From assembly GCA_005893265.1 (NCBI GenBank), contig VBOX01000086.1, positions 1-45,112 on the forward strand: a stretch of DNA of 45,112 bases, read 5' to 3'. The translations under genes and the position numbers were made by a program. The stretch is from Candidatus Eiseniibacteriota bacterium. Lineage in GTDB: Bacteria > Eisenbacteria > RBG-16-71-46 > SZUA-252. Shown piece after piece: positions 16,644-35,099 of the stretch (the stretch's first letter is position 1; every line of letters starts with the position of its first letter). The notes beneath the pieces are model-generated. The model was not told where the DNA came from, made no database searches, and was given only the letters and a program-made list of their open reading frames with translations.

Positions 16644-17983
16644 GGCGGGTTCTCTTTCTCGCCTATTTCTTCCCACCGCTGGGAGGGGGAGGATGCCAGC
16701 GCACGCTCAAGCTGGTCCGGTATTTGGAGCCCCTCGGATGGTCCTCCGCCGTCGTGACGACGCGGGACCGCGACTACTGGATCCTCGATCCAAGCCTCCT
16801 CTCCGAGGTGCCTGCGGAAGCGGAGGTGATCCGGGCCGGGGGGTTCACGGCGCTCAACGCCCTCCGAATCCTCATGCGCGCGGGCGTCTCGATTGAGGAG
16901 CCGCAAGGCGCGCGCCGGCCCGCGCCGTTCCGGGCGCTCCGCGCCCTCCAGCGCTGGACGCTCTTCCCGGACGGATACCGCGGGTGGGCCGATGCCGCCC
17001 GCCGCGCCGCGGGAACGCGTATCCGGGCCGGGGGAATCGACGCGCTCTGGACGACCTCCTCACCCGAGAGCGCTCACGTGGCTGGGCTCTCCCTCAAGCG
17101 GAAGCACGGCCTTCCATGGGTCGCCGACTTTCGCGACCCGTGGGTGGGGCGCGTCACCTACCGGCCTCCCACGCGCTGGCACGACGGGAGACATCGCGCG
17201 ATGGAGCGACGCGTGGTCCAGGAAGCGGATCGCGTGACCCTCGTGAGCGAAGCGATGGTCGAGCTCTATCGGGAGCGATATCGGGACGTCTCCCCCTCGC
17301 GTTTCGTTTTCCTTCCGAATGGCTTCGATTCCGATGATTGGCGCCGCGCGGCCCGCGTGGCGCAGGAGGAAGACCGGATCGCACACGGCTCGCCGGGGGC
17401 TCGGCGATTCGTGCTGCTCCACGCAGGGCAGCTCGCGCACCGTCCGACGGTCCGTACGCTCCTCGGCGCCGCGCGCCGCGTGCTCGAGGCGGATCCCGCC
17501 GCGCGCGAGGATCTACGGATACGATTCGTCGGCGGGAACGAAGATCTGAGCTCGCGCGAGCGGGAGCGATACGGCCTGGGCGCGGTGCTCGAGCTTCACC
17601 CCTCGCAGCCCCACGTCGAGGCGCTTGTCTCGATGCGGCGTGCCGGGGCGCTCCTGCTCCTGGGGCACGGAGGGGAGGCGGACTCGCTCCTCTACACGGG
17701 AAAGATCTACGAGTACCTGAGCAGCGGGCGTCCTGTGCTCGGGATCCTAGATCCCGGTCCGGGCGCGGCTCTGATCCGGTCCTCGCGCGCCGGCGCGGTG
17801 GTCGCGCCCGGGGACGAGCAGGGTGCGGCGCAGGCCATCCTCGGGTGGCTACAAGCCTGGCGCGGCGGCGCAGACCTCTCGACCCACCTCGCCGAGGAAG
17901 CCTCGGCCGCGTGGGAGCGCTCGAAAACAGCCGCCGCCGCCGCCAAAATCCTCTCCGAAATGTTGCCGACTCGTACCCGCTAG
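16640..17983 (+). CDS. Family 4-like glycosyltransferase (GTG start)
   Basis: VLFLAYFFPPLGGGGCQRTLKLVRYLEPLGW, WVADFRDPW, YTGKIYEYLSSGRPVLGI. Confidence 0.82.
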   Translation: MRRVLFLAYFFPPLGGGGCQRTLKLVRYLEPLGWSSAVVTTRDRDYWILDPSLLSEVPAEAEVIRAGGFTALNALRILMRAGVSIEEPQGARRPAPFRALRALQRWTLFPDGYRGWADAARRAAGTRIRAGGIDALWTTSSPESAHVAGLSLKRKHGLPWVADFRDPWVGRVTYRPPTRWHDGRHRAMERRVVQEADRVTLVSEAMVELYRERYRDVSPSRFVFLPNGFDSDDWRRAARVAQEEDRIAHGSPGARRFVLLHAGQLAHRPTVRTLLGAARRVLEADPAAREDLRIRFVGGNEDLSSRERERYGLGAVLELHPSQPHVEALVSMRRAGALLLLGHGGEADSLLYTGKIYEYLSSGRPVLGILDPGPGAALIRSSRAGAVVAPGDEQGAAQAILGWLQAWRGGADLSTHLAEEASAAWERSKTAAAAAKILSEMLPTRTR

Positions 17984-18068: not shown

Positions 18069-18098
18069 TTGACACCCCTTTTGGAGGGGCAGTAGGAT
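18069..18098 (+). promoter_or_regulatory. mraZ/dcw promoter TTGACA-N18-TAGGAT
   Basis: TTGACA 18069-18074, TAGGAT 18093-18098; AT-rich tract upstream (18037-18050); inverted repeat CCCCT...AGGGG (18075-18089) in the spacer. Confidence 0.65.
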
Positions 18099-18105
18099 GC
18101 GCCGG

Positions 18106-18130
18106 TGGTGATTTGTGGGGAATAGTGGGG
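18106..18130 (+). promoter_or_regulatory. Candidate MraZ operator: TGGTG-N5-TGGGG-N5-TGGGG
   Basis: Three TGGNG-type boxes at 18106, 18116 and 18126, exact 10-bp period, upstream of mraZ; matches the published TGGGN/5-nt-spacer MraZ box architecture. Confidence 0.7.
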
Positions 18131-18177: not shown

Positions 18178-18618
18178 ATGGCGACGTTTCGGGGGAGCTA
18201 CCGGCACTCGATTGACCATAAGGGTCGGATCAGTATTCCCGCGCGGTTTCGCCGCCTGCTCTCCGGGGACGCCTCAGACACCTTCATCATCCTCCGTGGT
18301 CTCGAAACGTGCGTGGCGCTCTATCCGCTCGATGAATGGCAGCGGATGGAGGAGCGGCTCCGCTCCCGCTCGTTTCACGACGAAACCAATCGCCGCTTCT
18401 TGCGGATCATGTCGCTGGATCTCAACGAGGGAACCATGGACGCGCAAGGACGTGTCGCGATTCCCCCGCGCCTACTCACCCATGCGCAGCTCAAGGGCGA
18501 GGCCATGGTGAACGGCGTCGTGGACCACATCGAGATCTGGGATCCGACCCAATTCGACGAATACCTCCGAACCTCGAATCGAAGCTACGAGGACATGGCC
18601 GGGGAGCTGCTGCTGTGA
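18178..18618 (+). CDS. mraZ: Transcriptional regulator MraZ
   Basis: MATFRGSYRHSIDHKGRISIPARFRRLL and second repeat DAQGRVAIPPRLLTHAQL; first gene of the dcw cluster. Confidence 0.96.
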   Translation: MATFRGSYRHSIDHKGRISIPARFRRLLSGDASDTFIILRGLETCVALYPLDEWQRMEERLRSRSFHDETNRRFLRIMSLDLNEGTMDAQGRVAIPPRLLTHAQLKGEAMVNGVVDHIEIWDPTQFDEYLRTSNRSYEDMAGELLL

Positions 18619-19070
18619 CGGCGGCTCGGGGGGTGGCGCGCCTTCCGCTCGCGTTTGACCGTCCGGTCTTCCAGTGGGATTCGCGGCGTGGGGCCGGGCC
18701 GCTCATCGTGAGGCTATTCGGAAGGCTGGGAGAACGCGAGCTCGCGCAGATCGTCCAGGCGGTATGGGAGAGGGGCCGCTCGCCGCGCGATCTCGTGTGC
18801 ATCGAATTCGAGCAGGTGACGCATCTCGACTACCGTGCGCTCTCCGAGTTCACGCGCGCGCTCATCCGGCAGCAGAACCGGGGCGCGGACGTGTGCCTCG
18901 TCGGTTTGAGCGTCTACCTGAGAAGCTTGTTCGGCGTCGCGGGTCTGGGACCCGCTCTGCGCCGTCTGGAATGGATGCCGGTGAAGGAGGCCGAGGCGCC
19001 GCGCCGTCCGCTGGGTCTTGGGGACGTCATCTCGCAATTCCCGGCTCGTCGTCGCGATATCAGGCGTTAG
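18615..19070 (+). CDS. STAS-domain protein (anti-sigma-factor-antagonist-like), noncanonical phosphosite
   Basis: GTG overlaps the mraZ stop. LVCIEFEQVTHLDYRALSEFTRALIRQQNRGADVCLVGLSVYLRSLFGVAGLGPALRRLEW fits the STAS core. Confidence 0.72.
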   Translation: MTAARGVARLPLAFDRPVFQWDSRRGAGPLIVRLFGRLGERELAQIVQAVWERGRSPRDLVCIEFEQVTHLDYRALSEFTRALIRQQNRGADVCLVGLSVYLRSLFGVAGLGPALRRLEWMPVKEAEAPRRPLGLGDVISQFPARRRDIRR

Positions 19071-19092: not shown

Positions 19093-20007
19093 ATGCCGGG
19101 TCACGTCCCGGTTCTCAAGGAGGAGGCCGTCCAGTTGCTCCTGACAGATCCGAACGGGACCTATGTGGACGTGACTTTAGGGGGCGGCGGTCACGCCGCC
19201 GCAATTCTGGAGTCGCTGGGGGTGGATGGGAGGCTGGTGGGTTTGGACTGTGACCCGGCTGCAATCGATCACGCGCGCGCCATGCCGCCCGCACCGGATC
19301 CCCGGTTCGTGGCCGGGCGCGCGCGCTTTTCCGAGATCAGGCCCGCGCTCCAAGGTCTCGGGATCAGCGTCGTCGATGGAATCCTGGCGGATCTCGGAAT
19401 TTCCTCGATCCAGCTCGATGACCCAGCACGCGGGCTTTCCTACACCGCTTCGGGGCCGCTTGACATGCGCCTCGATCCCTCGCTTCCAAGAACCGCCGAC
19501 GCGTTGCTCCGGGCGATCGACGACGACGAGCTGCTGCGCGTGTTGCGGGAGCTGGGCGAGGTGCCCCGACCCCGAGCGGCCGTTCGCGCGATCCGCCGCG
19601 CGCTCGCGGCCGAGGTCACGGTCACGGCGGAGACGCTCCGCAAGGCGCTCGAACCGCTCTACCCGGGGCCCGCGCGACCCCGGCGCCTTTCCCAGGTCTT
19701 TCAGGCTCTGCGGATCGCCGTGAACCGCGAGCTCGACGAATTGGAATCGCTGCTCCACGAAGCGGCACACCTTTTGCGGCCGGGCGGGACGCTATGTGTC
19801 ATCGCGTATCACTCGCTCGAGGACCGTATTGTCAAAAATACGTTCCGCCCGCCGCGTCCATACGATCCGAGGGAGCCCATCCCCGAGTCGCCTTGGGTTC
19901 CTCTAACCAAGAAGCCCATTCGTCCATCCGACGAGGAATGCCGCCGGAACCCACGCGCCCGAAGCGCGCGCCTTCGCGCGGCGCGGCTCAAGGCGGAGGC
20001 CGCGTGA
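19093..20007 (+). CDS. rsmH: 16S rRNA (cytosine1402-N4)-methyltransferase RsmH (MraW)
   Basis: HVPVLKEEAVQLL, YVDVTLGGGGHAAAILE, GILADLGISSIQLDDPARGLSY, DMRLD, CVIAYHSLEDRIVKN. Confidence 0.97.
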   Translation: MPGHVPVLKEEAVQLLLTDPNGTYVDVTLGGGGHAAAILESLGVDGRLVGLDCDPAAIDHARAMPPAPDPRFVAGRARFSEIRPALQGLGISVVDGILADLGISSIQLDDPARGLSYTASGPLDMRLDPSLPRTADALLRAIDDDELLRVLRELGEVPRPRAAVRAIRRALAAEVTVTAETLRKALEPLYPGPARPRRLSQVFQALRIAVNRELDELESLLHEAAHLLRPGGTLCVIAYHSLEDRIVKNTFRPPRPYDPREPIPESPWVPLTKKPIRPSDEECRRNPRARSARLRAARLKAEAA

Positions 20008-20573
20008 GCCTCGCGATGAAGGTCGCAGCGGCGCCGCGCCGCGGCGCGGGACTCGCTCCGGGACGGCGCTCGCGCGTCGAGCTCCGGGTCGCCGACGAGG
20101 GTGGGGAGGACGGGGGACGCGAGCTGCATGGGCCCTACCTGCGCTCGTTCCGGGCTCAGCCCAAGCGGCGCGTGAACCCCCGCGTGATCGCGCTCCTCCT
20201 TCTCGCGGCGTCGCTCCTCTTTCTCAAAGTATGGGAGCGCACGGTCGCGAATTCGCTCTCCATGGACCGCGACCGGTTGGCCCGGGAGGTGCGGACGCTT
20301 GAGAACCGAATCCGGATCACGCGCGACCTCGAGGAGCAGGCGGCGTTCCGGAGCGGCTTCGACCTCACGAGCCTGAGCCAGCTCGGCTTCCAAAACCCCG
20401 ATCCGGCGCGGGTCGTGGACGTCGATCTCGTTGAGCCCCGCGGCCGGCGCGGGGCGCGCGCCGGCTTGGGCGTGAGGCTCCTTGGAGCGGTGCGGCGGGC
20501 CGTGCCCAGCGCCTGGACCGAGCGCATCGTGGGGCTGCCGGCGGCACCCGTAGAAGCTGGAGGAAACCGATGA
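20004..20573 (+). CDS. ftsL: FtsL-like cell division protein
   Basis: Position between rsmH and ftsI; one TM (RVIALLLLAASLLFLKVW) followed by coiled coil (DRLAREVRTLENRI). Confidence 0.72.
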   Translation: MSLAMKVAAAPRRGAGLAPGRRSRVELRVADEGGEDGGRELHGPYLRSFRAQPKRRVNPRVIALLLLAASLLFLKVWERTVANSLSMDRDRLAREVRTLENRIRITRDLEEQAAFRSGFDLTSLSQLGFQNPDPARVVDVDLVEPRGRRGARAGLGVRLLGAVRRAVPSAWTERIVGLPAAPVEAGGNR

Positions 20574-22651
20574 GCCCACTCGATCTGCGCCGTCTCAAGC
20601 TCCTGGCTGTCATTGGGCTGCTCTTCTACGGCGCGATCCTCGCGCGCCTGATTTCGATCCAAGTCCTTGGCCATTCCAGGCTGGATCGGGAGGCCCGCGG
20701 GCAGCAGACCTCGCGCGTCATCCTGGAGCCCGAACGCGGCCGGATTTTCGACCGTCACCTGCTCCCCCTCGCCGACAACGTGGACGTGAGCCAGATCTCG
20801 GTCCGCCCGGCCGAGGTGCGCAACGCCTCGGCGGCCCAGCGTTTCATCCGTGCCGCGGTGGGGCCGCGCGGTCTGGACCGGCTCCGCCGAGGGAGGAGAA
20901 ACGCGTATATCCGTATCACATCGCAAGTTACACCTGAACAAGAGATTGCGATCCGGAAATCGGCGCTCCCGGCCGGGGTACAAGTGGAGGAGGTCCCGGC
21001 CCGCGTCTATCCGCTGGACGAGCTGGCGCGCCCCGTCGTGGGCGTGGTCGGCGTCGATGGTGTAGGGCTCGAGGGGATCGAGCGCGTGTTCGACCGCGAG
21101 CTACGCGGCGTGGGCGGGTGGGCCACGCTTTTCAGGGACGGGCGCGGCCTGGAGCACCAGCTCCCGCAGAGCATCGTGAAAGTCCCCGAGCCTGGATGGA
21201 GCTTGGTGACGACGATCGATCGGGACGCACAGTCGGTCCTCGTCATGGAGCTGAAACGGGCGGTGGCGCGCACCGGCGCGCGGAGCGGAATGGCGGTGTT
21301 CGCCGATCCGCACACCGGGGACATCTTCGCCATGGCGACCGTGGACGGCGCGAATCCGCCCGATGGCTCGGCGGGGAGGAACCGCGTGATCGCGGACCAG
21401 TACGAGCCCGGATCCACGTTCAAGCTGCTCGTCGGATGCGCGGCGCTCGAAGAGCACATCCTGGCCCCGGAGGATTCGTTCTACGTGAATCACGGCGAGG
21501 CGGACCTGGGCGGATTCACGATGCACGACTCGCATCCGGAGACGCGCTGGTACACCGTGCGCGAGGCGACCGCACTCTCGAGCAACGTCTGTTACGCGCA
21601 AATCGGGATGAAGGTCGGCGCGAGCGTCCTCTACCGCTACGCCCGGCTGTTCGGCTTCGGCCAGCCGACGCGGATCCAGCTTCCGGGGGAGACGTCGGGG
21701 CAAATCCGGAATCCGTCCCGGTGGTCGGCCCGGTCCTTGGCAACGATCTCGATCGGTCAAGAGGTGACGGCGACACCGCTTCAGATGCTCATGGCCTACT
21801 GCGCCGTGGCGAACGGCGGAATATTGATGCGGCCGAGGATCGCCTCGGCGCTCGTAAACGAGCTCGGCGAGCCGGTGCGGCTCTACCCGGTCGAGCGCGT
21901 GCGCCGCGTGATCTCCCCGGAGACATCGGAGACCTTCCGCTCGTTCCTTCGGGACGCGGTCACCATGGGAACGGCAACGGAGGCAGCGCTTCCTTGGTGC
22001 GAGGTGGCCGGGAAGACCGGCACGGCCCAAAAATCGGATGAGGGAGGCCGAGGATACGGGCAGGGACGTTACGTGTCTTCGTTCGTAGGAATGGCCCCGG
22101 CGAGGAATCCCCAGATCGTGGGTCTCATCGTTTTGGATGAGCCCCGCGGCGCCTATTACGGCGGCACCGTCGCGGCGCCCGTATTTCGGGACATCGTGGC
22201 GACCTGGGCCACGCTGGGCAAGGGTCCGGTCCGTCTCCCGGCACAGACGCTCGTTACGGCGGCCAGGCGGAAGGAGCAGGCGGTGCGCGTTCCGGACGTC
22301 AGGCTCATGGCGGCCGAGCAAGCCCGCTTCGTGCTCCGCTCCGCGGGGATGGATTGCGCCGTCGAAGGAAACGGCGCCCGCGTGGCGGTTCAGTCGCCGG
22401 AGCCGGGCGCGAACGCGCGATCAGGGGAGGTGGTTCGGGTCGTCCTCTCGACCGATCCCGCGCCGGACATCGGGTTCCCCGATCTTCGGGGCCTTTCGCT
22501 GCGCGAGGCGCTGGCGCGCCTGAGCGCCCTCTCCGTTCACATCGGGGGCGTCTATGGGAGTGGACAGGTCGTGGAACAGGATCCTCCGCCCGGCGCGGCG
22601 ATCAAGGCCGGCCAATCTTGCGCGATCCGGTGCGCGCCCCGGAGCTTGTGA
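20570..22651 (+). CDS. ftsI: Peptidoglycan transpeptidase FtsI (PBP3-like) with two C-terminal PASTA-like domains
   Basis: Motifs STFK (YEPGSTFKLL), SSN (ALSSNVCYAQIG), KTGT (AGKTGTAQK); tails VRVPDVRLMAAEQARFVLRSAGM... and IGFPDLRGLSLREALARL...VVEQDPPPGAAIKAG. Confidence 0.95.
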   Translation: MSPLDLRRLKLLAVIGLLFYGAILARLISIQVLGHSRLDREARGQQTSRVILEPERGRIFDRHLLPLADNVDVSQISVRPAEVRNASAAQRFIRAAVGPRGLDRLRRGRRNAYIRITSQVTPEQEIAIRKSALPAGVQVEEVPARVYPLDELARPVVGVVGVDGVGLEGIERVFDRELRGVGGWATLFRDGRGLEHQLPQSIVKVPEPGWSLVTTIDRDAQSVLVMELKRAVARTGARSGMAVFADPHTGDIFAMATVDGANPPDGSAGRNRVIADQYEPGSTFKLLVGCAALEEHILAPEDSFYVNHGEADLGGFTMHDSHPETRWYTVREATALSSNVCYAQIGMKVGASVLYRYARLFGFGQPTRIQLPGETSGQIRNPSRWSARSLATISIGQEVTATPLQMLMAYCAVANGGILMRPRIASALVNELGEPVRLYPVERVRRVISPETSETFRSFLRDAVTMGTATEAALPWCEVAGKTGTAQKSDEGGRGYGQGRYVSSFVGMAPARNPQIVGLIVLDEPRGAYYGGTVAAPVFRDIVATWATLGKGPVRLPAQTLVTAARRKEQAVRVPDVRLMAAEQARFVLRSAGMDCAVEGNGARVAVQSPEPGANARSGEVVRVVLSTDPAPDIGFPDLRGLSLREALARLSALSVHIGGVYGSGQVVEQDPPPGAAIKAGQSCAIRCAPRSL

Positions 22652-24141
22652 TCGGAATCGGCGGCTTGCGCACCGAGGCGCTCCCCGGGCTTTTGGGCGC
22701 CTCCGAGACGAGCGGAGAGCTTCGCGGCGAGTGGGGGATGGTCCGCTACAACTCGCGCGACGTGAAGGCGCGGGATCTCTTTGTCGCCATCCCCGGCCTC
22801 ACGCACGACGGCCATGCGTACGTCGCGGCCGCGGCGCGGAGCGGCGCCACGGCGGCTGTCGTCGAGTGCTTCGTGCCGGAGGTCGACCTTCCGCAAGTCC
22901 GCGTTCCGGATGCACGGCGCGCGCTTGCGATTCTGGCGGGGGAGGAAACCGGGAACCCCTCTCGCGAGATGGTGATCGCGGGAGTGACCGGGACCAACGG
23001 AAAGACAACCACCGCGCACCTGATCCGCGCGGTGTTCGAGCAAGCGGGTCATCGCACAGGATTCATCGGCACCGTCGGATACGAGTTCGAGGGACACCAC
23101 GAGCCGGCACCCCATACCACGCCCGAAGCGCCCGACTTGATGCGCATGCTTCGAGCCTGGCGGGCGCGCGGGGCGGCGGCTGTGGCCATGGAGGTTTCAT
23201 CGCACGCGCTCGCTCTCGAGCGAACCTATGGCGTCGCGTTCGATGTCGGTGTCTTCACCAATCTGACTCAAGATCATCTCGATTTTCACGGAACCCTTGA
23301 ATCGTACCGCGAAGCGAAAGCCCGCCTCTTTCGCGCCGAGGAGAGAGGGGACCGGACGAAGCGGTTTTCGGGTGCCGTCAACGTGGACGATCCGGCGGGC
23401 CTCTGGATCCAGGCCCGTGCCGACTGCCCCATCGTCGGATTCGGGATGGGCGCTCGAGCAGACATCCGGGCGGAAGATGTGCGCTCGAGATCGGACGGCA
23501 CGGATTTTCGGATTCGGGAGCGGAACCAAACCACGATGGTTTCCCTGCGCCTGCGAGGCGCATTCAACGCCATGAACGCGCTCGCCGCGTTCGCCGCCGG
23601 CCGTGCGCTCGAGATTCCCACGGGCACGATCGTCGCCGGTCTCGAAAGGGTCGCGTCGGTGCCGGGGCGGCTCGAGCCGGTGGACGAGGGACAACCCTTT
23701 CAGGTGCTGGTCGATTACGCACACACGCCGGACGCGCTGAGCCGGGCCCTCGAGGCGGTACGGGAATTCCGTCCCAAGAGGCTTCTGTGCGTCTTCGGTT
23801 GCGGAGGAGACCGCGATCGGGGCAAGCGACCGCTGATGGGTGCCGCCGCGGCACGGCTCGCGGACCAGGTGATCCTCACGTCCGATAACCCACGGAGCGA
23901 GGACCCGGCTGCGATCCTGCGCGAGATCGAGGCGGGAGTGCGTGGAGCGTCCAACGTGCGGACGATCGCGGATCGGGCTCTGGCAATCGCGGCCGCCATC
24001 GACGTGGCCGCTGCCGGAGACGCTCTCCTGATCGCGGGGAAAGGGCACGAGACCTACCAGATCATCGGCGCCCGCACGCTCCCATTCGATGACCGAGAGG
24101 TCGCGCGGGCGGCTCTTCGGCGGCGGGGATTCGGACGTTGA
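22648..24141 (+). CDS. murE: UDP-N-acetylmuramoyl-tripeptide synthetase MurE
   Basis: GVTGTNGKTTTAHLI, HTPEAPDLMRML-type region, DYAHTPDALSRAL, DNPR motif (SDNPRSEDP; typical of meso-DAP-adding enzymes). GTG start 22648. Confidence 0.95.
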   Translation: MIGIGGLRTEALPGLLGASETSGELRGEWGMVRYNSRDVKARDLFVAIPGLTHDGHAYVAAAARSGATAAVVECFVPEVDLPQVRVPDARRALAILAGEETGNPSREMVIAGVTGTNGKTTTAHLIRAVFEQAGHRTGFIGTVGYEFEGHHEPAPHTTPEAPDLMRMLRAWRARGAAAVAMEVSSHALALERTYGVAFDVGVFTNLTQDHLDFHGTLESYREAKARLFRAEERGDRTKRFSGAVNVDDPAGLWIQARADCPIVGFGMGARADIRAEDVRSRSDGTDFRIRERNQTTMVSLRLRGAFNAMNALAAFAAGRALEIPTGTIVAGLERVASVPGRLEPVDEGQPFQVLVDYAHTPDALSRALEAVREFRPKRLLCVFGCGGDRDRGKRPLMGAAAARLADQVILTSDNPRSEDPAAILREIEAGVRGASNVRTIADRALAIAAAIDVAAAGDALLIAGKGHETYQIIGARTLPFDDREVARAALRRRGFGR

Positions 24142-25586
24142 ATCAGACACCGAGCCCCTGGCTGACACTCGACGAGGTGATCCGCGTGACCGCGGGGCGG
24201 CTCGCCCACACGATCGAAAAGCGACATGCGTCGGTGTCATTCAGCGCGTGCTCGATCGACACCCGGTCGCTTTCTGGCGGGGAGCTTTTCGTCCCGCTCC
24301 CCGGGACCCGCGCGGACGGGCATGATTTCGTGGTCTCGGCCCTTGAGGGGAAGGCGGCGGGGAGCCTCGCTTCGGACGCGCGGCCGCGCGATGCCGGCTG
24401 GGAGCGATCCGGGAAGCCTGTCGTCCTTGTCAAGGATCCGCTCCGGGCGCTTCAGGCTCTGGGACGCCACTGCCGGACCAAATCGGGAATTCCGTTGACC
24501 GCGGTCACCGGCTCGAATGGGAAGACGACCACGAAGGAGATGATCGCCGCCGTGCTCGGCGCGCGCTACCGAGTGCACAGGAATCGGGGAAACCTGAACA
24601 ACCACATCGGCGTCCCTCTTACGCTCACCCGGCTCAGGCAGGAGCACGAGATGGTCGTGATCGAGATGGGAATGAGCGCGCGCGGCGAGATCCGCGAGCT
24701 CGCGCTCGTCTCCCTCCCGAACGTGGGCGTCCTCACGAACGCCGCCGCGGCGCACTTGGCCTCGCTTCGCACCGTCGAGGAGGTGGCGCGGGCGAAGAGC
24801 GAGCTCGCGGAAGCGCTGCCTCGCGACGGCTTTCTGGTCCTGAACGCGGATGACGAGCGCCTCTGGAACATGAACCGCGGGCGGCCGGTCCCGCACAAGA
24901 GCTACGCGCTCGAGAATCGCGCGGCGGATCTCATACCGACGCGCGTCTCGCTCAGCGCCCACGGGGGCGCCTCCTTCGCGCTGGCGGACGGGACGGAATT
25001 CCGCCTGACGCTCCTCGGGCTCCACAACGTGCGCAACGCGCTCGCCGCGATCCTGGTGGGCGACCACTTCGGTATCCCGCGGGCGCTGGCGGCCGAGGCC
25101 TTAGGCTCGCTCCGCCCGGAGCGGCACCGACTCGAGCTTCTCGAGTCCGGCGGGGTCTTCGTCCTCGACGACGTCTATAACGCGAACCCCGCTTCGATGC
25201 TCGAGGCGCTCCGGCTCCTGGGGGCGATCGAGACCCGGGGCCAGCGGCGCGCCGTGCTCGGCGACATGCTGGAGCTGGGCCCGGATTCGGAACGGTTCCA
25301 CGAAGAGGCGGGCCGCGAGGTGCCGCGCGAATCATGGCTTTACGTGGCGGGGGAGTATGCCGGGGCGGTGGAACGCGGCGCCCGCGCCGCGGGGGTCTCG
25401 GCCGCGCGTATCCGGCTGTTTCCTTCCGTGCCGGAAATGGCTTCGGCCGTCGAGAAGGACGCGAAGCCCGGAGACCTGATTCTGGTCAAGGGCTCACGTG
25501 GGATGCGGCTCGAGCAGGTCGTGGAGCGTTTGGTTCCCGGGCAGAAGGACGCGTTTGATCCGATGCACGCGGCGGGAAGGAACTAG
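24138..25586 (+). CDS. murF: UDP-N-acetylmuramoyl-tripeptide--D-alanyl-D-alanine ligase MurF
   Basis: TAVTGSNGKTTTKEMI, RNRGNLNNHIGVPLTLTRL, DDVYNANPASMLEAL. TTG start. Confidence 0.95.
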   Translation: MNQTPSPWLTLDEVIRVTAGRLAHTIEKRHASVSFSACSIDTRSLSGGELFVPLPGTRADGHDFVVSALEGKAAGSLASDARPRDAGWERSGKPVVLVKDPLRALQALGRHCRTKSGIPLTAVTGSNGKTTTKEMIAAVLGARYRVHRNRGNLNNHIGVPLTLTRLRQEHEMVVIEMGMSARGEIRELALVSLPNVGVLTNAAAAHLASLRTVEEVARAKSELAEALPRDGFLVLNADDERLWNMNRGRPVPHKSYALENRAADLIPTRVSLSAHGGASFALADGTEFRLTLLGLHNVRNALAAILVGDHFGIPRALAAEALGSLRPERHRLELLESGGVFVLDDVYNANPASMLEALRLLGAIETRGQRRAVLGDMLELGPDSERFHEEAGREVPRESWLYVAGEYAGAVERGARAAGVSAARIRLFPSVPEMASAVEKDAKPGDLILVKGSRGMRLEQVVERLVPGQKDAFDPMHAAGRN

Positions 25587-25587
25587 G

Positions 25588-26676
25588 GTGTTCTACCACT
25601 TCCTCTATCCCCTTCACGAGCAGTTCCCGGCCCTGAATGTCTTCCGGTACATCACCTTTCGCTCCGCCTATGCGGCGGCGACGGCGCTCTTCCTGGCGTT
25701 CTTGCTCGGCCCCCCGGTCATCCAGTGGCTCCGGGCGCTCAAGATCGGCCAGCAAGTGCGGGATGACGGCCCGCGGAGTCACCTGCCGAAGGCCGGAACG
25801 CCCACGATGGGTGGTGTCCTCATCGTCATCGCCATCGTGATCCCGACGCTCCTCTGGGGGAATCTCGAGAATCGGAACGTCTGGATCGCGCTGCTCGCGA
25901 CGGTGTGGATGGGTCTGGTCGGCTTCATCGATGACTATCTTCGGGTCGTCAAGAGGATGCGGAAGGGGCTCCTCGGGCGGTACAAGTTGGCCGGGCAGCT
26001 GGTGCTTGGGATCGCGGTATTCTCGGCGGTGTATTTCTATCCCAGCCACGGCGTCCTGGATCCGGCCGAGACCAACGTGCCGTTCCTGAAGCGCACGGTC
26101 GTGGACTTCGGCTGGCTCTATCTCCCGTTCGTGATCCTCGTCGTGACCGGCGCCTCGAACGCGGTGAATCTCGCGGATGGGCTCGACGGACTCGCCGCGG
26201 GGATGACGACCTTCGCCGCGCTCGCCTTGGGTGGAATGTGCTACGTCACGGGCCACGTGAAATTCTCCCAGTACCTTCAGATTCCCTATTTCCAGGGCGC
26301 CGGGGAGCTCACCGTCTTCTGCTCCGCGGTTGTCGGCGCCACGCTGGGATTCCTGTGGTGGAACTGCCATCCGGCGGACGTCTTCATGGGGGACACCGGC
26401 TCGCTCGCGCTCGGGGCCGCGTTGGGCACGGTCGCGGTCCTGATCAAGCGTGAGTTCCTCCTCGCCATCGTCGGGGCGGTCTTCGTCGCCGAGGCGCTCT
26501 CGGTCATGGCGCAGGTTCTGTCGTTCAAGATATCAGGGAAGCGGATCCTCAGGATGGCGCCGCTTCATCACCATTTCGAGCTCAGCGGGTGGGCGGAGCC
26601 GCGCGTCGTGGTCCGGTTTTGGATCGCGGCGGCGCTCGCAGCCCTGCTGGGATTGAGCACGCTCAAGCTGCAATGA
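25588..26676 (+). CDS. mraY: Phospho-N-acetylmuramoyl-pentapeptide-transferase MraY
   Basis: KAGTPTMGG, FIDDYLRV, NAVNLADGLDGLA, CHPADVFMGDTGSLALG, APLHHHFE. Confidence 0.96.
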   Translation: MFYHFLYPLHEQFPALNVFRYITFRSAYAAATALFLAFLLGPPVIQWLRALKIGQQVRDDGPRSHLPKAGTPTMGGVLIVIAIVIPTLLWGNLENRNVWIALLATVWMGLVGFIDDYLRVVKRMRKGLLGRYKLAGQLVLGIAVFSAVYFYPSHGVLDPAETNVPFLKRTVVDFGWLYLPFVILVVTGASNAVNLADGLDGLAAGMTTFAALALGGMCYVTGHVKFSQYLQIPYFQGAGELTVFCSAVVGATLGFLWWNCHPADVFMGDTGSLALGAALGTVAVLIKREFLLAIVGAVFVAEALSVMAQVLSFKISGKRILRMAPLHHHFELSGWAEPRVVVRFWIAAALAALLGLSTLKLQ

Positions 26677-28061
26677 CGAAGCCGACCCGGGCCTGGTTCG
26701 AAGGATCGCGGGTGCTGGTTGTGGGGTTGGCGCGAAGTGGGCTCGCCGCGGCGGGTTTGCTCGTCCGACATGGTTGCAGCGTTCGCGGCGTGGACCGGAG
26801 GCGCCCGGAGGAGTTGGGAGCCTCGGCGCAGGAGTTGCGGGATCTCGGCGTGGAGCTCCGCTCCGGCTCGATGGATCCGTCGGAGCTGGACGGTCGCGAT
26901 CTGGTCGTCGTGAGCCCGGGAGTACCGCTCGATCTACCGCTCTTCACCGAGGCGGAACGGCGCGGCATCCCGATCGCCGCGGAGGTGGAGCTCGGATTCG
27001 GCGTCGCGCGCGCTCCGATCATAGCGGTAACCGGAACGAACGGGAAGAGCACGACGGTGGAGCTCCTGGGCGCGATCGGGCGCGCGGCGGGGCGGAAGAC
27101 AGAAGTGCTCGGCAATATTGGCACGGCGCTTTCGGAGAGGGCGGAGTCGGTCCCCGAAAACGGGCTCTTGGTGGTCGAGATCTCGAGTTTCCAGCTCGAG
27201 GCTTGTACGCGGTTCCATCCCAAAGTTGGAGTGCTGCTCAACGTGACGCCGGATCACCTGGACCGCCATCGGAACATGGAGCGCTACGCGGGGCTCAAGG
27301 CGCGCCTCTTTGAATTCCAGACCAAGGACGAGTTCCGCGTTCAGCCTCTCGGCGACTCGAGGATCGAGCTTCTGCTGCGGCCGATGAAATCGCGGCCGCT
27401 CTGGTTCGGATTCGCGGACCCGACCGGGGACGGGGTGTGGCTCGAGGACGGCTCCCTCCGCTTCCGCTTCGCGGGACGGTCCGGGGATCTGATCCGTCGC
27501 GAGGAGGCGGCGCTGCCCGGGCCGCACAACACGGAGAACATGGCCGCGGCAGCGGCGGCAGCCCTCGCCGTCGGCATTCCCGAGCGCGCGATCGCGAAGG
27601 CCATGCGCGAATTTCGAGGGCTGCCCCACCGGCTCGCGCTGGTCGCGGAGATCGACGGGGTCCGTTACGTGAACGACTCGAAGGCGACCAACGTGGATGC
27701 GCTCAAACGAGCGCTCGAATCCTTCTCGCCGCCGGTGACCCTCATCGCGGGCGGGAGGGACAAGGACGGAGATTTCGCCGCGATCCGGGCGCTCGTCATG
27801 GAGCGCGTGCGCCACGCCGTCTACGTCGGCGAAGCGGCTGGGAAGCTCGAGCAATCGTGGCCGGACGTGCCACATGAGCGGGCGCCCACGCTCGAGGACG
27901 CCGTTCAGGCCGCGCGCGCCCGCACCCTTTCCGGCGGCGTGGTGCTTCTCTCGCCGGGTTGCGCGAGCTACGACATGTTCCGGAATTTCGAGGAGCGGGG
28001 CGCCCGGTTCGAGGCCGCGGTCCTTGAGCTGAAGCGTTCGCTCGCGAAGGCGCGCCGATGA
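26673..28061 (+). CDS. murD: UDP-N-acetylmuramoylalanine--D-glutamate ligase MurD
   Basis: GLARSGLAAAGLL, AVTGTNGKSTTVELLGAI, NVTPDHLDRH, PHRLALVAEIDGVRYVNDSKATN, LSPGCASYDMFRNFEERG. Confidence 0.96.
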   Translation: MTKPTRAWFEGSRVLVVGLARSGLAAAGLLVRHGCSVRGVDRRRPEELGASAQELRDLGVELRSGSMDPSELDGRDLVVVSPGVPLDLPLFTEAERRGIPIAAEVELGFGVARAPIIAVTGTNGKSTTVELLGAIGRAAGRKTEVLGNIGTALSERAESVPENGLLVVEISSFQLEACTRFHPKVGVLLNVTPDHLDRHRNMERYAGLKARLFEFQTKDEFRVQPLGDSRIELLLRPMKSRPLWFGFADPTGDGVWLEDGSLRFRFAGRSGDLIRREEAALPGPHNTENMAAAAAAALAVGIPERAIAKAMREFRGLPHRLALVAEIDGVRYVNDSKATNVDALKRALESFSPPVTLIAGGRDKDGDFAAIRALVMERVRHAVYVGEAAGKLEQSWPDVPHERAPTLEDAVQAARARTLSGGVVLLSPGCASYDMFRNFEERGARFEAAVLELKRSLAKARR

Positions 28062-29233
28062 GCACCGCCATCGCGGCGACCCGCAGATTGGATTGGGCCA
28101 TTCTCCTCCCGGTGGTCGGGCTGCTGGCGCTCGGGCTCGTGATGGTCTACTCCTCGAGCGCGGTCCTGGGCGCGGACCGCTATCACTCCGAGTTTTTCTT
28201 CCTGAAGCGACAGGCCATGCGGCTCCTGCTCGGGCTTGTGGTCATGCTCTTTCTCGCGCGCCTCGACTATCACCGCCTGGTGGCGTTCTCCCCATGGGCC
28301 CTTGCGGGAAGCGTGGTGCTTCTCGCCGCGCTCGTCGTCCTCGGGGGCGCGGGCGTGCGCGGCGCCAACCGCTGGCTCTCCGTGGCCGAGTTCACGCTCC
28401 AGCCAACCGAGGTCGCGCGGTGCGTGTGCGTCGTCTATCTGGCGAAGCTCCTCGACCGAAAAGGGGATCGAATCCGCTCGTTCCGGGATGGGGTGCTTCC
28501 CGCGGCGGCGGTGCTCGGCGTCCTCGCGATCCTGATCTTGAAGCAGCCGAATCTCGGGAGCACGATCGCACTCCTCGTAACGGGTTTCCTCATGCTCCAC
28601 CTCGCGGGAGCCCGGCCGAAGCATCTGGCCTTCCTCGCCGGCGCCGGGGCGCTCCTGGCCCTGGTTCAGGTCCTGCGCCATCCCTACATGATGGACCGCG
28701 TCCAGGGATGGCTTTCGCACTGGGCGACGGGGTCGGTCGACGCTCAAGGGAAGAGCTGGCAGCTGCACCAATCCATCGTGGCGCTCGGGTCGGGAGGGGT
28801 CTTCGGAGAAGGTCCGGGCCGGGGAATGCAGAAGTTCTTCTTTCTGCCCGATCCGCACACCGATTTCATTTACGCCGTCATCGGCGAGGAGCTTGGCCTG
28901 GTGGGCACCGTGTCCGTGCTCGTCGCGTACGTGGTCCTTTTCTTGCGCGGGCTCAAGATCGCCGGCCGGGCGCCGGACCGTTTTGGATTCCTGCTCGCGG
29001 CCGGTCTGACCGTGAGCCTCGCCGTCTACGTCGGCATGAACATCTCGGTCGTGACCGGGATCATCCCGACAACCGGACTGCCGCTTCCGTTCCTGAGCTA
29101 CGGGGGATCGGCTTTGGTCGTGAACTTGGGGGTCGTGGGTGTCCTACTCAACGTCGCAAGCCAAATGCAAACCGGCATTCGAACCGGTCCGGCCACAAGA
29201 TCGAGCACTCGGAAACGCCCGGGTGGCCGGTAG
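28058..29233 (+). CDS. ftsW: SEDS peptidoglycan polymerase FtsW
   Basis: LPVVGLLALGLVMVYSSSAV, GANRWLSVAEFTLQPTE, DFIYAVIGEELGLVG, TGLPLPFLSYGGSALVVNL. Confidence 0.95.
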   Translation: MSTAIAATRRLDWAILLPVVGLLALGLVMVYSSSAVLGADRYHSEFFFLKRQAMRLLLGLVVMLFLARLDYHRLVAFSPWALAGSVVLLAALVVLGGAGVRGANRWLSVAEFTLQPTEVARCVCVVYLAKLLDRKGDRIRSFRDGVLPAAAVLGVLAILILKQPNLGSTIALLVTGFLMLHLAGARPKHLAFLAGAGALLALVQVLRHPYMMDRVQGWLSHWATGSVDAQGKSWQLHQSIVALGSGGVFGEGPGRGMQKFFFLPDPHTDFIYAVIGEELGLVGTVSVLVAYVVLFLRGLKIAGRAPDRFGFLLAAGLTVSLAVYVGMNISVVTGIIPTTGLPLPFLSYGGSALVVNLGVVGVLLNVASQMQTGIRTGPATRSSTRKRPGGR

Positions 29234-30359
29234 CGCCGGGGCGATTCGCGTGCTGATCGCCGCCGGAGGAACCGGCGGGCATCTCTATCCGGGCCTTGCC
29301 ATCGCGGAGGAGTGGATGCGGACGCATCCCGATTCGAAGGTGGTGTTCGTGGGAACGAGTCGCGGGCCGGAAACACAGGCGGTCCCGCGCGCCGGGTTCG
29401 AGCTCACGACCATCTCGGCACGAGGGTTCCCGCGCCGTCCCGGTTTGGGGTGGTTTCGCGCCGTGTTCGGGCTGGGGAGGGCCTTGGTGCAATCGTTCCG
29501 TCTGGTCGTGGATTTCAAACCGCACGTGGTTGTGGGAACCGGGAGCTATGTGAGCGCTCCGGTGGTGTTGATCGCGAGGCTCTTCGGGATCCCCGTGATC
29601 ATTCAGGAGCAGAATTCCATTCCTGGCGCCACGAACCGCTGGCTCAACCTGGTCGCGACCGAGGTGCACATCAGCTTCGTGGAATCCCGAGGGTATTTTC
29701 GCCGAAAGAACAACCTCCGCGTCTCGGGGAATCCCATACGTCGGTCCCTTCTCCAGCAGGACCGGCTGAGCGCGTATGAGGCGTTCGGGTTGGATCCCCA
29801 GAAGCGGACGCTCTTCGTGTTCGGGGGAAGCCGCGGCGCGCAGAGCATCAACCGGGCCGTCCAGGGCGCGCTCGAGCGCTGGAAGGGCCTCACCCAGCTC
29901 CAGGTGATCTGGCAGACGGGTTCGGACGATTTCGAGGCGATCCGCGAGCGCTTTCAGAACTTTCCGCTCCGGGTACAAGTCTTCGCCTACCTCGAGGCGA
30001 TCGAGAAGGCCTATGCGGTCGCGGACCTCGCGATCTGCCGAGCGGGCGCGATGACCATCGCCGAGCTGGCCGCCTCCGGCGTCCCCGCGATTCTCGTGCC
30101 CTACCCGTATGCAACGCGGGACCATCAGACCCACAACGCGCGGGGGCTCCTGGACCGTGACGCCGCCGAAGTCATCGCGGACAAGGACCTGGATCCCGAG
30201 GTCCTCGCCGCCAAGGTCGAGGCTCTGCTTCGCGACGAGCCGCGGCTTCGCCGATTGGCGAGGAACGCGCGGGCGTTCGCGCGGATCGATGCCGCTCAGC
30301 GAATCGCGCGTTCCATGGACCAGCTCGTCCATGCGAGCCCGATCCCGCGTGAAAGCTAA
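29223..30359 (+). CDS. murG: UDP-GlcNAc--lipid I GlcNAc transferase MurG
   Basis: VLIAAGGTGGHLYPGLAIAEE, EQNSIPGATNRWL, FGGSRGAQSINRAV, CRAGAMTIAELAASGVPAILVPYPYATRDHQTHNARGL. Confidence 0.95.
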   Translation: MAGSAGAIRVLIAAGGTGGHLYPGLAIAEEWMRTHPDSKVVFVGTSRGPETQAVPRAGFELTTISARGFPRRPGLGWFRAVFGLGRALVQSFRLVVDFKPHVVVGTGSYVSAPVVLIARLFGIPVIIQEQNSIPGATNRWLNLVATEVHISFVESRGYFRRKNNLRVSGNPIRRSLLQQDRLSAYEAFGLDPQKRTLFVFGGSRGAQSINRAVQGALERWKGLTQLQVIWQTGSDDFEAIRERFQNFPLRVQVFAYLEAIEKAYAVADLAICRAGAMTIAELAASGVPAILVPYPYATRDHQTHNARGLLDRDAAEVIADKDLDPEVLAAKVEALLRDEPRLRRLARNARAFARIDAAQRIARSMDQLVHASPIPRES

Positions 30360-30365
30360 GTTCGC

Positions 30366-31733
30366 ATGTACGGAAGAATTCGTCGGATTCACCTCGTGGG
30401 GATTGGCGGAAGCGGAATGAGCGGGATCGCGGAGGTGCTTCTGAATCTGGGCTACCAGGTGTCGGGATCGGACGTGAAGGAATCCGAACCGGTGGCGCGG
30501 CTTCGCTCGCTCGGCGCGCGCGTCTTCATTGGCCACCGTGCCGAACAGGTGGAAGGGGTCGACGTGGTCGTCGCCTCGACGGCGATCGCGGAAGCGAATG
30601 CGGAAATCCTTCGCGCGCACGAGCGCGCCATCCCGGTGATTCCGCGCGCGGAGATGCTCGCCGAGCTGATGCGAATCAAGTACTCGGTCGCCGTCGCCGG
30701 GGCGCATGGGAAGACAACGACCACGTCGATGGTCGGGGAGCTTCTCGCGCACGGCGGGCTCGACCCGACGGTGATCGTCGGGGGCCGGGTCCGTGCGGTC
30801 GGCGCACACGCGCGGCTCGGGAAGGGGCCCTTCCTGGTCGCCGAAGCCGACGAGAGCGACGGGAGCTTCCTCCTGCTCAACCCAACGATCGCGGTGGTGA
30901 CGAACATCGACGCCGAGCATCTCGACTACTACAAGGATCTGGCCCACGTGCAGGAGACGTTTCTCGATTTTGTGAATCGCGTTCCCTTCTACGGCACGGT
31001 CGTTCTGCCGCATGACGATCCCAACGCCGAGCCGCTTCGGTCACGGGTGAAGCGCCGTCTGCTCACGTACGGATTCTCGGAGGGCGCGGACTTCCGTGGC
31101 TCCGAGCTCCACGTCGATGGGCGGGGCGTCCGATTCAGCCTGAACGCGCGGGGGCGGGACGAGGGCGTATTCGACCTTCGGATCAGCGGCAAGCACAACG
31201 CTCGAAACGCGCTGGCCGCGATCGTCGCCGGCTGGGAGCTGGGAATTCCCATTTCCAAGATTCGCGAAGCGCTCCACGAGTTCAGCGGCGTGAGCCGCCG
31301 GCTCGAGGTCCGTGGGGAAGTGAGGGGCGCGCTCTGGGTGGACGACTACGGTCACCACCCGACCGAAATCGAAGCCGCGATCCAGGCCCTCCGCGAAACC
31401 TACGGGCGGAGGATCGTCGCCGTGTTTCAACCGCACCGATTCACGAGGACGAAGGCGCTGCGCGACCGGTTCACGACCTGCTTCGCCGGCGTGTCGGAGC
31501 TCGTGCTCCTTCCGATCTACCCGGCGGGCGAACCCCCGATTCCCGGCATCGCCTCCGAGATTCTGGCCGATGGGATCCGCGCGAACGGCGCCGCGACGGT
31601 GCGGATGGCCGCGGATTTCGGCCAGGCCGCGAAGATCGCACGCGAAATCCTGCGCGAGGGGGATCTCCTGGTCACGATCGGCGCCGGGGACGTCTACCGC
31701 GTGGGGGAGCTGGCGCGGGGAGGCTCCGCGTGA
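30366..31733 (+). CDS. murC: UDP-N-acetylmuramate--L-alanine ligase MurC
   Basis: IHLVGIGGSGMSGIAEVL, VAGAHGKTTTTSMVGELL, VVTNIDAEHLDYY, DDYGHHPTEIEAAI, FQPHRFTRTKAL. Confidence 0.96.
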   Translation: MYGRIRRIHLVGIGGSGMSGIAEVLLNLGYQVSGSDVKESEPVARLRSLGARVFIGHRAEQVEGVDVVVASTAIAEANAEILRAHERAIPVIPRAEMLAELMRIKYSVAVAGAHGKTTTTSMVGELLAHGGLDPTVIVGGRVRAVGAHARLGKGPFLVAEADESDGSFLLLNPTIAVVTNIDAEHLDYYKDLAHVQETFLDFVNRVPFYGTVVLPHDDPNAEPLRSRVKRRLLTYGFSEGADFRGSELHVDGRGVRFSLNARGRDEGVFDLRISGKHNARNALAAIVAGWELGIPISKIREALHEFSGVSRRLEVRGEVRGALWVDDYGHHPTEIEAAIQALRETYGRRIVAVFQPHRFTRTKALRDRFTTCFAGVSELVLLPIYPAGEPPIPGIASEILADGIRANGAATVRMAADFGQAAKIAREILREGDLLVTIGAGDVYRVGELARGGSA

Positions 31734-31764
31734 GCGCGCGCCGCGTCCGGGAAGGGGGGAGCAC

Positions 31765-32598
31765 GTGAGGGTGGGTTGCCGCACGACCGCAAGGCTCAAG
31801 CTCCCCGAGAGGCGGCGGCGCAATCGAAGGATCGCCGCCTACGCGGTCCTCGCGGCCCTGGCCCTCTGGGGGCTCACGGGGCTCGCGCGTCCCGCCGCTC
31901 GCGTGCTCGGCACACTACCCCTGTTCCAGGCGGGACGGGTCGAGGTGACCGGCCTTCTCTACCTCACGCGGGAGGAGGTTCGGCCGTCGATCCCCGTGAG
32001 CGAGGGAGAGAGTCTCTTCAACGTGCGTCCGGCGGAGATCATTCGCGCCGTGACACGGAATGCGAGAATCGAGAGCGCGTCGGTACAGCTCCTTCCTGCG
32101 GCGGTCCGGGTTTCGGTCCGCGAGCGCCGGCCGTTCGTGCTTGTGAACGCCGAGGGTCTCCTGGAGGTGGATTCGACCGGGACCATCCTGCCCCCGCTTG
32201 CCAGGGGGCTGATCGCCGACCGCCCGGTGGTCACCGGTCTTTCGATCCTGGCGCGTCGCCCGGGCGCGCGCGTGAACCTGCCGCGCTTCGACGACGTCCT
32301 CCGCGTCGTAACGCTCCTCGAGTCGCCGGACGTGGCGCTCCTGCCTGAGATTTCGGAAATCGTGGTGAGTGATCCCCGGTGGTTCGTCCTGCGAACCTCC
32401 CGGGATCAGATCCCGATCCTGATCGATCCGAAGGGGTTGACGCCGCGCTGCATGAGGGCGCTGGCGGCGACCCTTCGCGATTTGCGGGATCGCGATCGAC
32501 GGGTTCTAGGTTTGGACGCTCGATATCGGGGACAGGTGATCGTGCGGTGCGCTCCCGACAGCTTGGGCGAGGCACCGGCGGTGCGGGACAAGGTGTAA
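31765..32598 (+). CDS. ftsQ: Cell division protein FtsQ
   Basis: One N-terminal TM, POTRA-like FQAGRVEVTGLLYLTREEVRPSIPVSEGESLFNV; position between murC and ftsA; GGGGGGA 4 nt before GTG 31765. Confidence 0.85.
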   Translation: MRVGCRTTARLKLPERRRRNRRIAAYAVLAALALWGLTGLARPAARVLGTLPLFQAGRVEVTGLLYLTREEVRPSIPVSEGESLFNVRPAEIIRAVTRNARIESASVQLLPAAVRVSVRERRPFVLVNAEGLLEVDSTGTILPPLARGLIADRPVVTGLSILARRPGARVNLPRFDDVLRVVTLLESPDVALLPEISEIVVSDPRWFVLRTSRDQIPILIDPKGLTPRCMRALAATLRDLRDRDRRVLGLDARYRGQVIVRCAPDSLGEAPAVRDKV

Positions 32599-32612
32599 TT
32601 GGAGGGGGACTG

Positions 32613-33842
32613 ATGGCGGAAGCGAGAATCTACGCTGGGCTGGACATCGGCACGACGAAGATCACCGCCATTGTCGCAGAGCCGGAGGAGGACGGGGAAG
32701 GGATCCGCGTCATCGGCGTGGGCACCGCGCCTTCGGACGGGCTCAAACGCGGCGTGGTCGTGAATCTGGAGAAGACGACCCGGTCGATTCAGTATGCGGT
32801 TCAGGAAGCGGAGCGCATGTCGGGCCGGACGATCCGTGGCGTGTTCGCCGGGATCGCGGGGGACCACATTCGCGGGATCAACAGCCGCGGCGTGATCGCC
32901 GTGTCGCGCAAGGACGCGGAGATACGCCCGCACGACCTGGAACGGGTCATCGAGGCGGCCAAGGCCGTCGCGATCCCCGCCGACCGGGAAATCCTTCATG
33001 TCTTGCCGCAGGAGTTCATCGTCGACGACCAGGACGGCATCCGCGACCCGGTCGGGATGTCGGGCGTGAGACTCGAGGCGGAGGTCCACATCATCACCGG
33101 GGCCGCGTCCGCGTGCCGCAACGTCATTCGCGCGGCGGAGCGCGCCGGGCTCGAGGTGGAGGAGCTGGTGCTGGAGCCGCTCGCTTCGGCGGACGCGGTT
33201 CTGACGCAGGACGAGCGCGACCTGGGCGTCGCGCTGCTCGATATCGGGGGAGGAACCACCGATGTCGCGATTTTCTATGAGGGGAGCGTGCGCCACACCG
33301 CGGTCATCGGACTCGGAGGCTCCAACGTGACGAACGACCTCGCGATCGGACTCAGAACCCCGGTCGAGCGCGCCGAGCAGCTCAAGCTTCAAAGCGGATG
33401 CGCGCTCACGTCGATGGTGCGGCCCCAGGAGGTGGTGCAGGTGCCGAGCGTCGGAGGCCGCTCGGACCGCGAGGTGTCGCGGCACATGCTCGCCATGATG
33501 ATCGAGCCGCGTATCGAGGAGATCTTCGAGCTGAGCAAGAAGGAGATCCGCACGAACCACATCGCCGACCTGCTCGGCGCCGGCGTGGTGCTCACCGGAG
33601 GCGCCTCGTCGCTCATGGGCATGCCGGAGCTGGCGGAGCAGGTCTTCGACCTGCCGGTTCGTCGCGGATTCCCGATGGGGATCACCGGGTTGACGGAGGC
33701 GGTATGCGATCCACGATTTGCGACCGGCGTGGGGCTTGCGATCCACGCCCATTTGACGGGTGCGAGGCCGCACACGGCCGAGCGGGGGGTGCTGAGCCGT
33801 ATTTCATTCGGGTTGAAGCGGTGGATCGAGGAGCTGGTCTAA
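32613..33842 (+). CDS. ftsA: Cell division protein FtsA
   Basis: IYAGLDIGTTKITAIVAE, ALLDIGGGTTDVAIFYEG, GAGVVLTGGASSLMG; C-terminal amphipathic GLKRWIEELV. Confidence 0.95.
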   Translation: MAEARIYAGLDIGTTKITAIVAEPEEDGEGIRVIGVGTAPSDGLKRGVVVNLEKTTRSIQYAVQEAERMSGRTIRGVFAGIAGDHIRGINSRGVIAVSRKDAEIRPHDLERVIEAAKAVAIPADREILHVLPQEFIVDDQDGIRDPVGMSGVRLEAEVHIITGAASACRNVIRAAERAGLEVEELVLEPLASADAVLTQDERDLGVALLDIGGGTTDVAIFYEGSVRHTAVIGLGGSNVTNDLAIGLRTPVERAEQLKLQSGCALTSMVRPQEVVQVPSVGGRSDREVSRHMLAMMIEPRIEEIFELSKKEIRTNHIADLLGAGVVLTGGASSLMGMPELAEQVFDLPVRRGFPMGITGLTEAVCDPRFATGVGLAIHAHLTGARPHTAERGVLSRISFGLKRWIEELV

Positions 33843-33869
33843 TCCAGCGGAGGAGGGAGGAGTCGAGCG

Positions 33870-35099
33870 ATGCTTGAGTTGATTGATGACGGGAAGGCTG
33901 TGTTGGGTGCCTCGATCAAGGTGATCGGAGTCGGGGGGGCGGGAGGAAACGCGGTGAACCGGATGATCCAGTCCGGACTGCAGGGGGTGGAGTTCATCGC
34001 CGCGAACACCGACGCCCAGGTGTTGGACCAATCGCTCAGCCCGAGGAAGCTGCAGCTCGGGGCGGGCATCACGAAGGGGCTCGGCTCGGGAGCGAATCCC
34101 AACGTCGGGCGGGATGCGGCGGAGGAGGATGAAGCGAACATCGCCGAGGCGCTCGAGGGAGCCGACATGGTCTTCGTGACCGCGGGGATGGGGGGAGGCA
34201 CGGGCACGGGTGCGGCGCCGGTGGTCGCACGCATCGCCCGGACGCAGGGCGCGCTCACCGTCGCGGTCGTAACCCGCCCCTTCGAGTTCGAGGGGCGGCG
34301 CAGAATGCAGCTCGCGGACGATGGTTTGCGGGAGCTTCGGGAACGGGTCGACACGCTGATCGTCATTCCGAACCAGAGGCTTCTCACGATCGTCGATCGC
34401 ACCACGCCGCTCAAGGAGGCATTCCGGGTGGCGGATCAGGTCCTGCATCACGCGACCAAGGGGATCTCGGATCTCATCACCGTTCCCGGCCTCGTGAACC
34501 TGGACTTCGCGGACGTGAAGACGGTCATGGTCGAGCGCGGAAACGCGCTGATGGGTGCCGGGCACGCGACCGGCCCGAACCGCGCGTACGAAGCCGCCCA
34601 GTCGGCGGTCTCCAGCCCGCTTCTCGACGATGTTTCGATCTCCGGGGCCGAGGCGCTCCTCGTGAACGTCACGGGCGGAGAATCGATGACGCTCCACGAG
34701 ATCAACGAAGCGGTCACGGTGGTGGTCGACGCCGCGGGCCATGACGCCAACGTCATCTTCGGAGCGGTCATCGACGAGCATATGGGTGACGGGCTCTCGA
34801 TCACGGTGATCGCGACGGGATTCGGAAAGGGGGAGGCGAGGCAGAAGCCGCTCGCCATGCCGGCGCCCCATGCACCGGCGCCTCGGATCTACGAGATGGA
34901 CCCGCGCGAGCGCGCCGCGAGGCCGGTCACGGCTCGACCATCGCTCGAGGATCCCACCCCGGAGGAAGAAGGTGTCGTGGCGGGCGCGCGCCCCGGCTAT
35001 CGGATGTCGCCCGGGTCGCCGCGCCGTCCGTTCGGCGGCAGGGCGATCACGCGGGACAACATGGACGTGCCGGCCTTCATGCGGAAGCAGATGGATTAA
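33870..35099 (+). CDS. ftsZ: Cell division GTPase FtsZ
   Basis: [58 protein letters not shown]-terminal peptide [12 protein letters not shown]. Confidence 0.98.

Follow-up and report, generated by a model that had tools for sequence, protein, structure and literature searches.

In most bacterial division clusters mraZ is followed directly by rsmH. The DNA analysed here is a stretch of 45,112 nucleotides (contig VBOX01000086.1, assembly GCA_005893265.1) from a Candidatus Eiseniibacteriota bacterium, referred to below as the window. In this stretch a STAS-like gene lies between the two. The locus raises the question of whether this gene belongs to the division operon, and what a STAS protein might do there when its phosphoacceptor serine appears to be absent.

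The additional gene and its operon

The adjacency of mraZ and rsmH, which the original prediction took as the normal arrangement, was seen in all 20 control loci, which were taken from genomes lacking the STAS gene. In each of them the two genes adjoin on the same strand, with no STAS match between them. In the window, this interval contains a 151-codon open reading frame (Table 1). Its GTG start lies within the mraZ stop (ctGTGAc), and the GTGA coupling claimed for this 151-aa ORF is therefore confirmed as a 4-bp overlap at 18615. The dN/dS among four congeners was 0.28-0.45, indicating purifying selection, so the frame is a genuine gene. The window otherwise matches the canonical dcw cluster (mraZ-rsmH-ftsL-ftsI-...-ftsZ) in order and content, and differs from it by one additional gene in the mraZ/rsmH interval. 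The cluster downstream of rsmH includes ORFs for an ftsI-type PBP, murE/murF-like and mraY-like proteins and a murD-like ligase, together with ftsW, murG, a further Mur ligase at the murC position, ftsQ, ftsA and ftsZ (annotated by Pfam for 26589-35099, and by ORF translations alone for 20570-26676).

Table 1. Features of the mraZ-STAS-rsmH region in window coordinates
Feature	Position	Strand	Basis
Sigma-70-like promoter, TTGACA-18 nt-TAGGAT	18069..18098	+	consensus scan, 10/12 matches, 0.2 expected in scanned stretch
MraZ-box-like direct repeat TGGGGAATAGTGGG, 10-bp period, mraZ leader	18116..18129	+	pattern search
mraZ	18178..18618	+	PF02381, 112.8 bits; two AbrB-type stretches
STAS gene, dcw-embedded, 151 aa	18615..19070	+	ORF reading, Pfam, fold model, phylum conservation
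Predicted STAS domain core, residues 29-112	18699..18950	+	AlphaFold pLDDT, Foldseek matches to RsbV/SpoIIAA
Signature H70-L-D72-Y73-R74, beta3/alpha2 turn, Tyr73 for SpoIIAA phosphoserine	18822..18836	+	alignments, residue counts
Second conserved patch S99-V-Y101, beta4/alpha3 turn	18909..18917	+	conservation in family alignment
rsmH (mraW)	19093..20007	+	PF01795, 268.6 bits
Remaining dcw cluster, ftsI-type PBP through ftsZ	20570..35099	+	

MraZ of E. coli represses the dcw cluster, and MraW/RsmH antagonises MraZ (PMC8475190). Of the 70 STAS-bearing loci, 46 had MraZ-box-like repeats in the 200 bp preceding mraZ; the chance expectation for the main spacing is about 1.2 per 45-kb window on both strands. 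The promoter, these repeats and the overlapping or close frames suggest that the operon is likely to be MraZ-controlled and the STAS gene co-transcribed. The claim that the gene is set with the division cluster thus holds in the form of an MraZ-type operon position with coupled frames.

Several other elements of the window were recorded. A second TGGG-N6-TGGG repeat lies within the rsmH frame at 19217-19230, and the six repeats of this type in the window exceed every one of 100 shuffles (mean 1.2). A GT4-type glycosyltransferase gene (16640-17983) directly precedes mraZ, as it does in many relatives of several families (loci L002-L009, L012, L013, L027, L028, L062-L064, L067 and L068), and the neighborhood is therefore conserved past the dcw genes. 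Downstream of the cluster, shortly after recG, a 307-aa ORF (37632-38555, +) carries an N-terminal zinc ribbon (PF13717). About 8 kb after ftsZ, a 429-aa ORF (43136-44425, +) gave a weak match to Arf-type small GTPases (PF00025, 26.3 bits) and possibly holds an MglA-like GTPase domain.

Distribution and origin of the gene

Within the window's phylum the gene is a regular member of the operon. A protein search found it in all eight genomes of the same family and in most of the same class, and a profile search combined with locus reading placed it between mraZ and rsmH in 44 of the 47 genomes of the phylum, the same 44 that carry MraZ. Reading of divergent loci confirmed its place and frame (in locus L063, rsmH is beyond the stretch read). 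In the remaining three genomes neither the STAS gene nor mraZ was found; rsmH had no match in two of them and matched only from profile position 69 in the third. These look like draft-assembly gaps, since mraZ is missing and rsmH is missing or partial. Loss of the gene was considered and set aside because an intact mraZ-rsmH locus is lacking in all three. In the synteny survey, every relative whose locus is intact thus has the gene within its dcw cluster. The mraZ and STAS frames overlap in 36 of 43 loci of the phylum versus 4 of 24 outside it, and the gap between the STAS gene and rsmH is usually shorter than 50 bp or an overlap.

Of the 385 genomes in the wider survey, 338 lie outside the window's phylum; all were searched with the family profiles A2 and A6 before the loci were read. 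The mraZ-STAS-rsmH arrangement was found in 20 outside genomes from 14 families. A separate scan of named records showed it in Citreicoccus inhibens (on the same contig as surveyed genome G074) and Archangium sp. (both Myxococcota), Candidatus Edwardsbacteria and UBP2. MraZ was found in 307 of the 385 genomes. Outside the phylum the STAS gene is a minority feature, in at least about 20 of 264 MraZ-bearing genomes, a lower bound because profile sensitivity limits detection. A scan of genome contigs with the single protein gave 91 pattern matches and no relatives.

In a maximum-likelihood tree of 104 STAS domains, built with the signature columns excluded, the dcw label required 2 changes as against 33.6 for shuffled labels, and a tree with all dcw STAS proteins as one clade was not rejected (AU p = 0.36). 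Most or all of the dcw members therefore share ancestry. Either one or two recruitments into the cluster are possible, given a short alignment with several long branches. Many independent insertions were also considered; the two label changes do not support them, on a tree of a short domain with weak forks. Members of the window's phylum did not form a single clade, a split that the weak forks could explain.

Distant phyla carry this gene at the same spot and with the replacement described below, so it seems to be a component of the division operon that has been overlooked in these lineages. A cross-phylum reconstruction of the dcw cluster counts 17 genes, and STAS is absent from its text (PMC8871954). 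Searches of the open literature (subscription journals excluded) for STAS together with mraZ or dcw returned nothing relevant and no paper describing the gene. NCBIfam and Pfam contain no model specific to this group, the best being the general anti-sigma antagonist and STAS models, and many such genes are surely auto-annotated as 'STAS domain-containing protein'.

A STAS domain with a replaced phosphosite

The window protein itself scored narrowly below the Pfam cut-offs for STAS_2 (25.2 bits, cut-off 29.2) and STAS (22.3 bits, cut-off 22.6), and phmmer against the PDB returned only SpoIIAA, at an E-value near 1. The profile of the wider family, on the other hand, matched SpoIIAA at 1.7e-15, and 28 of 29 diverse members matched PF01740 at E <= 0.01 (best 1.3e-18). 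An AlphaFold2 model with 44 relatives as input had a pLDDT of 83.4, with most of the core above 95. RsbV (6m36) and SpoIIAA (1th8/1tid) ranked first among the solved structures in Foldseek, with probability 1.00, and the Citreicoccus relative was modelled with the same order of elements. Since fold model, family profile and relatives agree, identification as a STAS protein, as had been predicted, can be regarded as settled despite the sub-cut-off Pfam scores. No other domain was found in the 151 residues, the N-terminal part included, by Pfam or in the AlphaFold model.

The window segment VTHLDYRALSEF aligns to LTFMDSSGLGVI of SpoIIAA, and in the phmmer alignment VTHLDYRAL stands over LTFMDSSGL. 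Tyr73 therefore occupies the position of the SpoIIAA phosphoacceptor serine, and the serine is indeed absent, as was originally suspected. In the model, strand beta3 ends at residue 71 and helix alpha2 starts at Y73. In the family alignment (A2), conservation is 90% or more at G97 and Y101, and Y101 does not characterise ordinary STAS proteins. The signature of the dcw type can be written H-x-D-[YF]-R ... G-[LIV]-S-x-Y. The dcw form has His three residues before the phosphosite, where ordinary STAS proteins have Tyr, Phe or Trp, and Arg after it in place of Ser, Ala or Thr, and gains the Tyr of G-L-S-x-Y.

The replacement follows the location of the gene. Outside the phylum, the 24 dcw STAS loci have Tyr at the phosphosite in 19 cases, Phe in 2, Val in 2 and Leu in 1, with Ser or Thr in none, while all 60 STAS loci outside the dcw cluster, which include paralogues from the same genomes and from the window's phylum, have Ser (57) or Thr (3). 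The separation is complete; the Fisher p of 1.6e-21 is uncorrected for relatedness and too small because the sequences are related. The 44 dcw loci inside the phylum have Tyr (31), Phe (10), Leu (1), Arg (1) and Ser (1). All loci were read aligned to one profile, and sampling was by similarity to profiles that carry Tyr at this position, so the search should have been biased towards any Tyr-type STAS proteins outside the dcw cluster; the loci read contained none. Loss of the serine is thus not a local oddity. It is a fixed signature shared by the STAS proteins embedded in dcw clusters of at least three phyla.

Two variants were noted among the loci. In two members of the phylum (L066 in genome G028 and L069 in G040) the STAS gene lies between mraZ and rsmH with a degenerate signature (SRFERF and HDIESR), which possibly reflects decay or a changed partner. 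A small subgroup (L132 in G110 and L141 in G381) reads H-[IV]-N-V-S-G; here the phosphosite is Val and the next residue is Ser, to which the phosphosite has perhaps shifted.

In SpoIIAA, the beta3-alpha2 and beta4-alpha3 turns form the kinase-binding face. The signature and the second patch sit on these two turns as judged from the predicted strands and helices. The dcw protein probably uses this docking face, and it is presumably insensitive to kinase at the phosphosite, since the serine is missing.

Partners of the dcw STAS protein

The comparison with known systems shows what is shared and what is changed. Antagonists of the SpoIIAA/RsbV type (TIGR00377, PF01740) have the same single STAS domain and fold. 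However, the window protein lacks their phosphoacceptor Ser and carries H-x-D-[YF]-R, and its gene sits between mraZ and rsmH with no kinase or sigma gene alongside. The stressosome proteins RsbS, RsbR and YtvA use STAS modules in multiprotein signalling, but the window protein has neither the N-terminal sensor domain of the RsbR/YtvA type nor Ser/Thr at the phosphosite. RsbS signalling partly persists without its phosphosite (S59A) (PMC3944199), and it is therefore a precedent for phosphorylation-independent STAS function. MlaB of the Mla lipid transporter (PF13466-type) is likewise a STAS_2-like single domain and acts as a docking subunit; the window gene differs in its operon, with no mla genes beside it at the dcw locus, and its fold and profile similarity to MlaB is weaker.

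We think it rather probable that the protein is an adaptor of the dcw operon that works outside the Ser-phosphorylation cycle, and that its likeliest partner is an operon product, MraZ first. It would be made from the MraZ-type promoter along with MraZ and RsmH and would fold as a SpoIIAA/RsbV-type STAS domain. The usual docking face would have been remodelled to H-x-D-[YF]-R and G-L-S-x-Y, and with such a face the binding of a conserved partner might be constitutive or governed by a switch that does not involve Ser phosphorylation. Even without the Ser, the protein may be controlled by a ligand or by a modification of another kind. The protein would then tune the repression of division genes by MraZ, as anti-anti-sigma factors tune a transcription regulator, and this tuning is perhaps set within the MraZ/RsmH antagonism, in which a protein whose gene separates mraZ from rsmH is naturally a candidate. 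MraZ is a first guess as the putative partner, made from operon position, and RsmH adjoins the STAS gene just as closely. Between genomes with and without the STAS gene, 2-3 MraZ columns differed beyond shuffled labels; these differences are not readable as co-evolution because the control MraZ proteins were taken from the top of the score list.

It is rather unlikely, in our estimate, that RsmH is the partner and that the STAS protein serves as an accessory or regulatory subunit of this neighbouring 16S rRNA methyltransferase. The gene is always immediately upstream of rsmH, and in most loci the frames overlap or lie close. However, RsmH functions without a STAS protein in most bacteria, and no RsmH column exceeded shuffled labels between genomes with and without the gene, in a weak test whose controls were again chosen by the best-scoring MraZ. 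We regard as unlikely an ordinary partner-switching anti-anti-sigma factor that still works with an RsbW-like kinase encoded in the genome and is fixed in its unphosphorylated, kinase-binding form, its expression from the dcw operon constitutively sequestering an anti-sigma factor. The closest folds are RsbV and SpoIIAA, HATPase_c_2 matches are plentiful across the phylum, and at least 17 occur in the window's genome. However, no kinase is on the window's contig among the matches listed, and the neighbours of the gene are mraZ and rsmH, with no anti-sigma kinase or sigma gene beside it. A bare loss of Ser need not fix new residues, whereas His, Tyr/Phe and Arg are conserved here, and the dcw proteins stand apart from ordinary STAS proteins on the tree. 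The suggested link to partner switching or polarity is unsupported; RsbW-like HATPase_c_2 candidates occur in the genome, none of the listed ones on the window's contig.

A role like that of MlaB towards MlaF, in which the STAS protein would regulate an ABC ATPase as one of its subunits, with FtsE as the candidate at the division site, seems distinctly improbable. MlaB structures were among the fold matches and the NCBIfam MlaB model was weakly matched by 4 of 29 members, but MlaB ranked well under RsbV and SpoIIAA and no adjacent ABC ATPase was present in the loci read. The chance that the ORF is spurious or decaying and is carried along by the mraZ overlap is negligible. The slightly sub-threshold Pfam scores of the window protein would fit it, but the confident fold argues against it, and the dN/dS and the conservation across phyla rule out a chance ORF.

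Few bacterial gene clusters have been studied as well as dcw, and the reason for the position of MraZ at its head is still poorly understood. The conserved additional gene in the mraZ/rsmH interval, which cultivable myxobacteria also carry, is a direct handle on MraZ, and the STAS protein may be the partner that explains MraZ or the MraZ/RsmH antagonism. More tentatively, and with less than even confidence, the protein might be an ancient dcw component of several phyla, in which a STAS phospho-switch became a permanently docking modulator of MraZ, as an extra regulatory layer in the control of division genes. The family also presents a clean evolutionary conversion of the STAS phospho-switch, the converted form of which was seen here only in the division operon.
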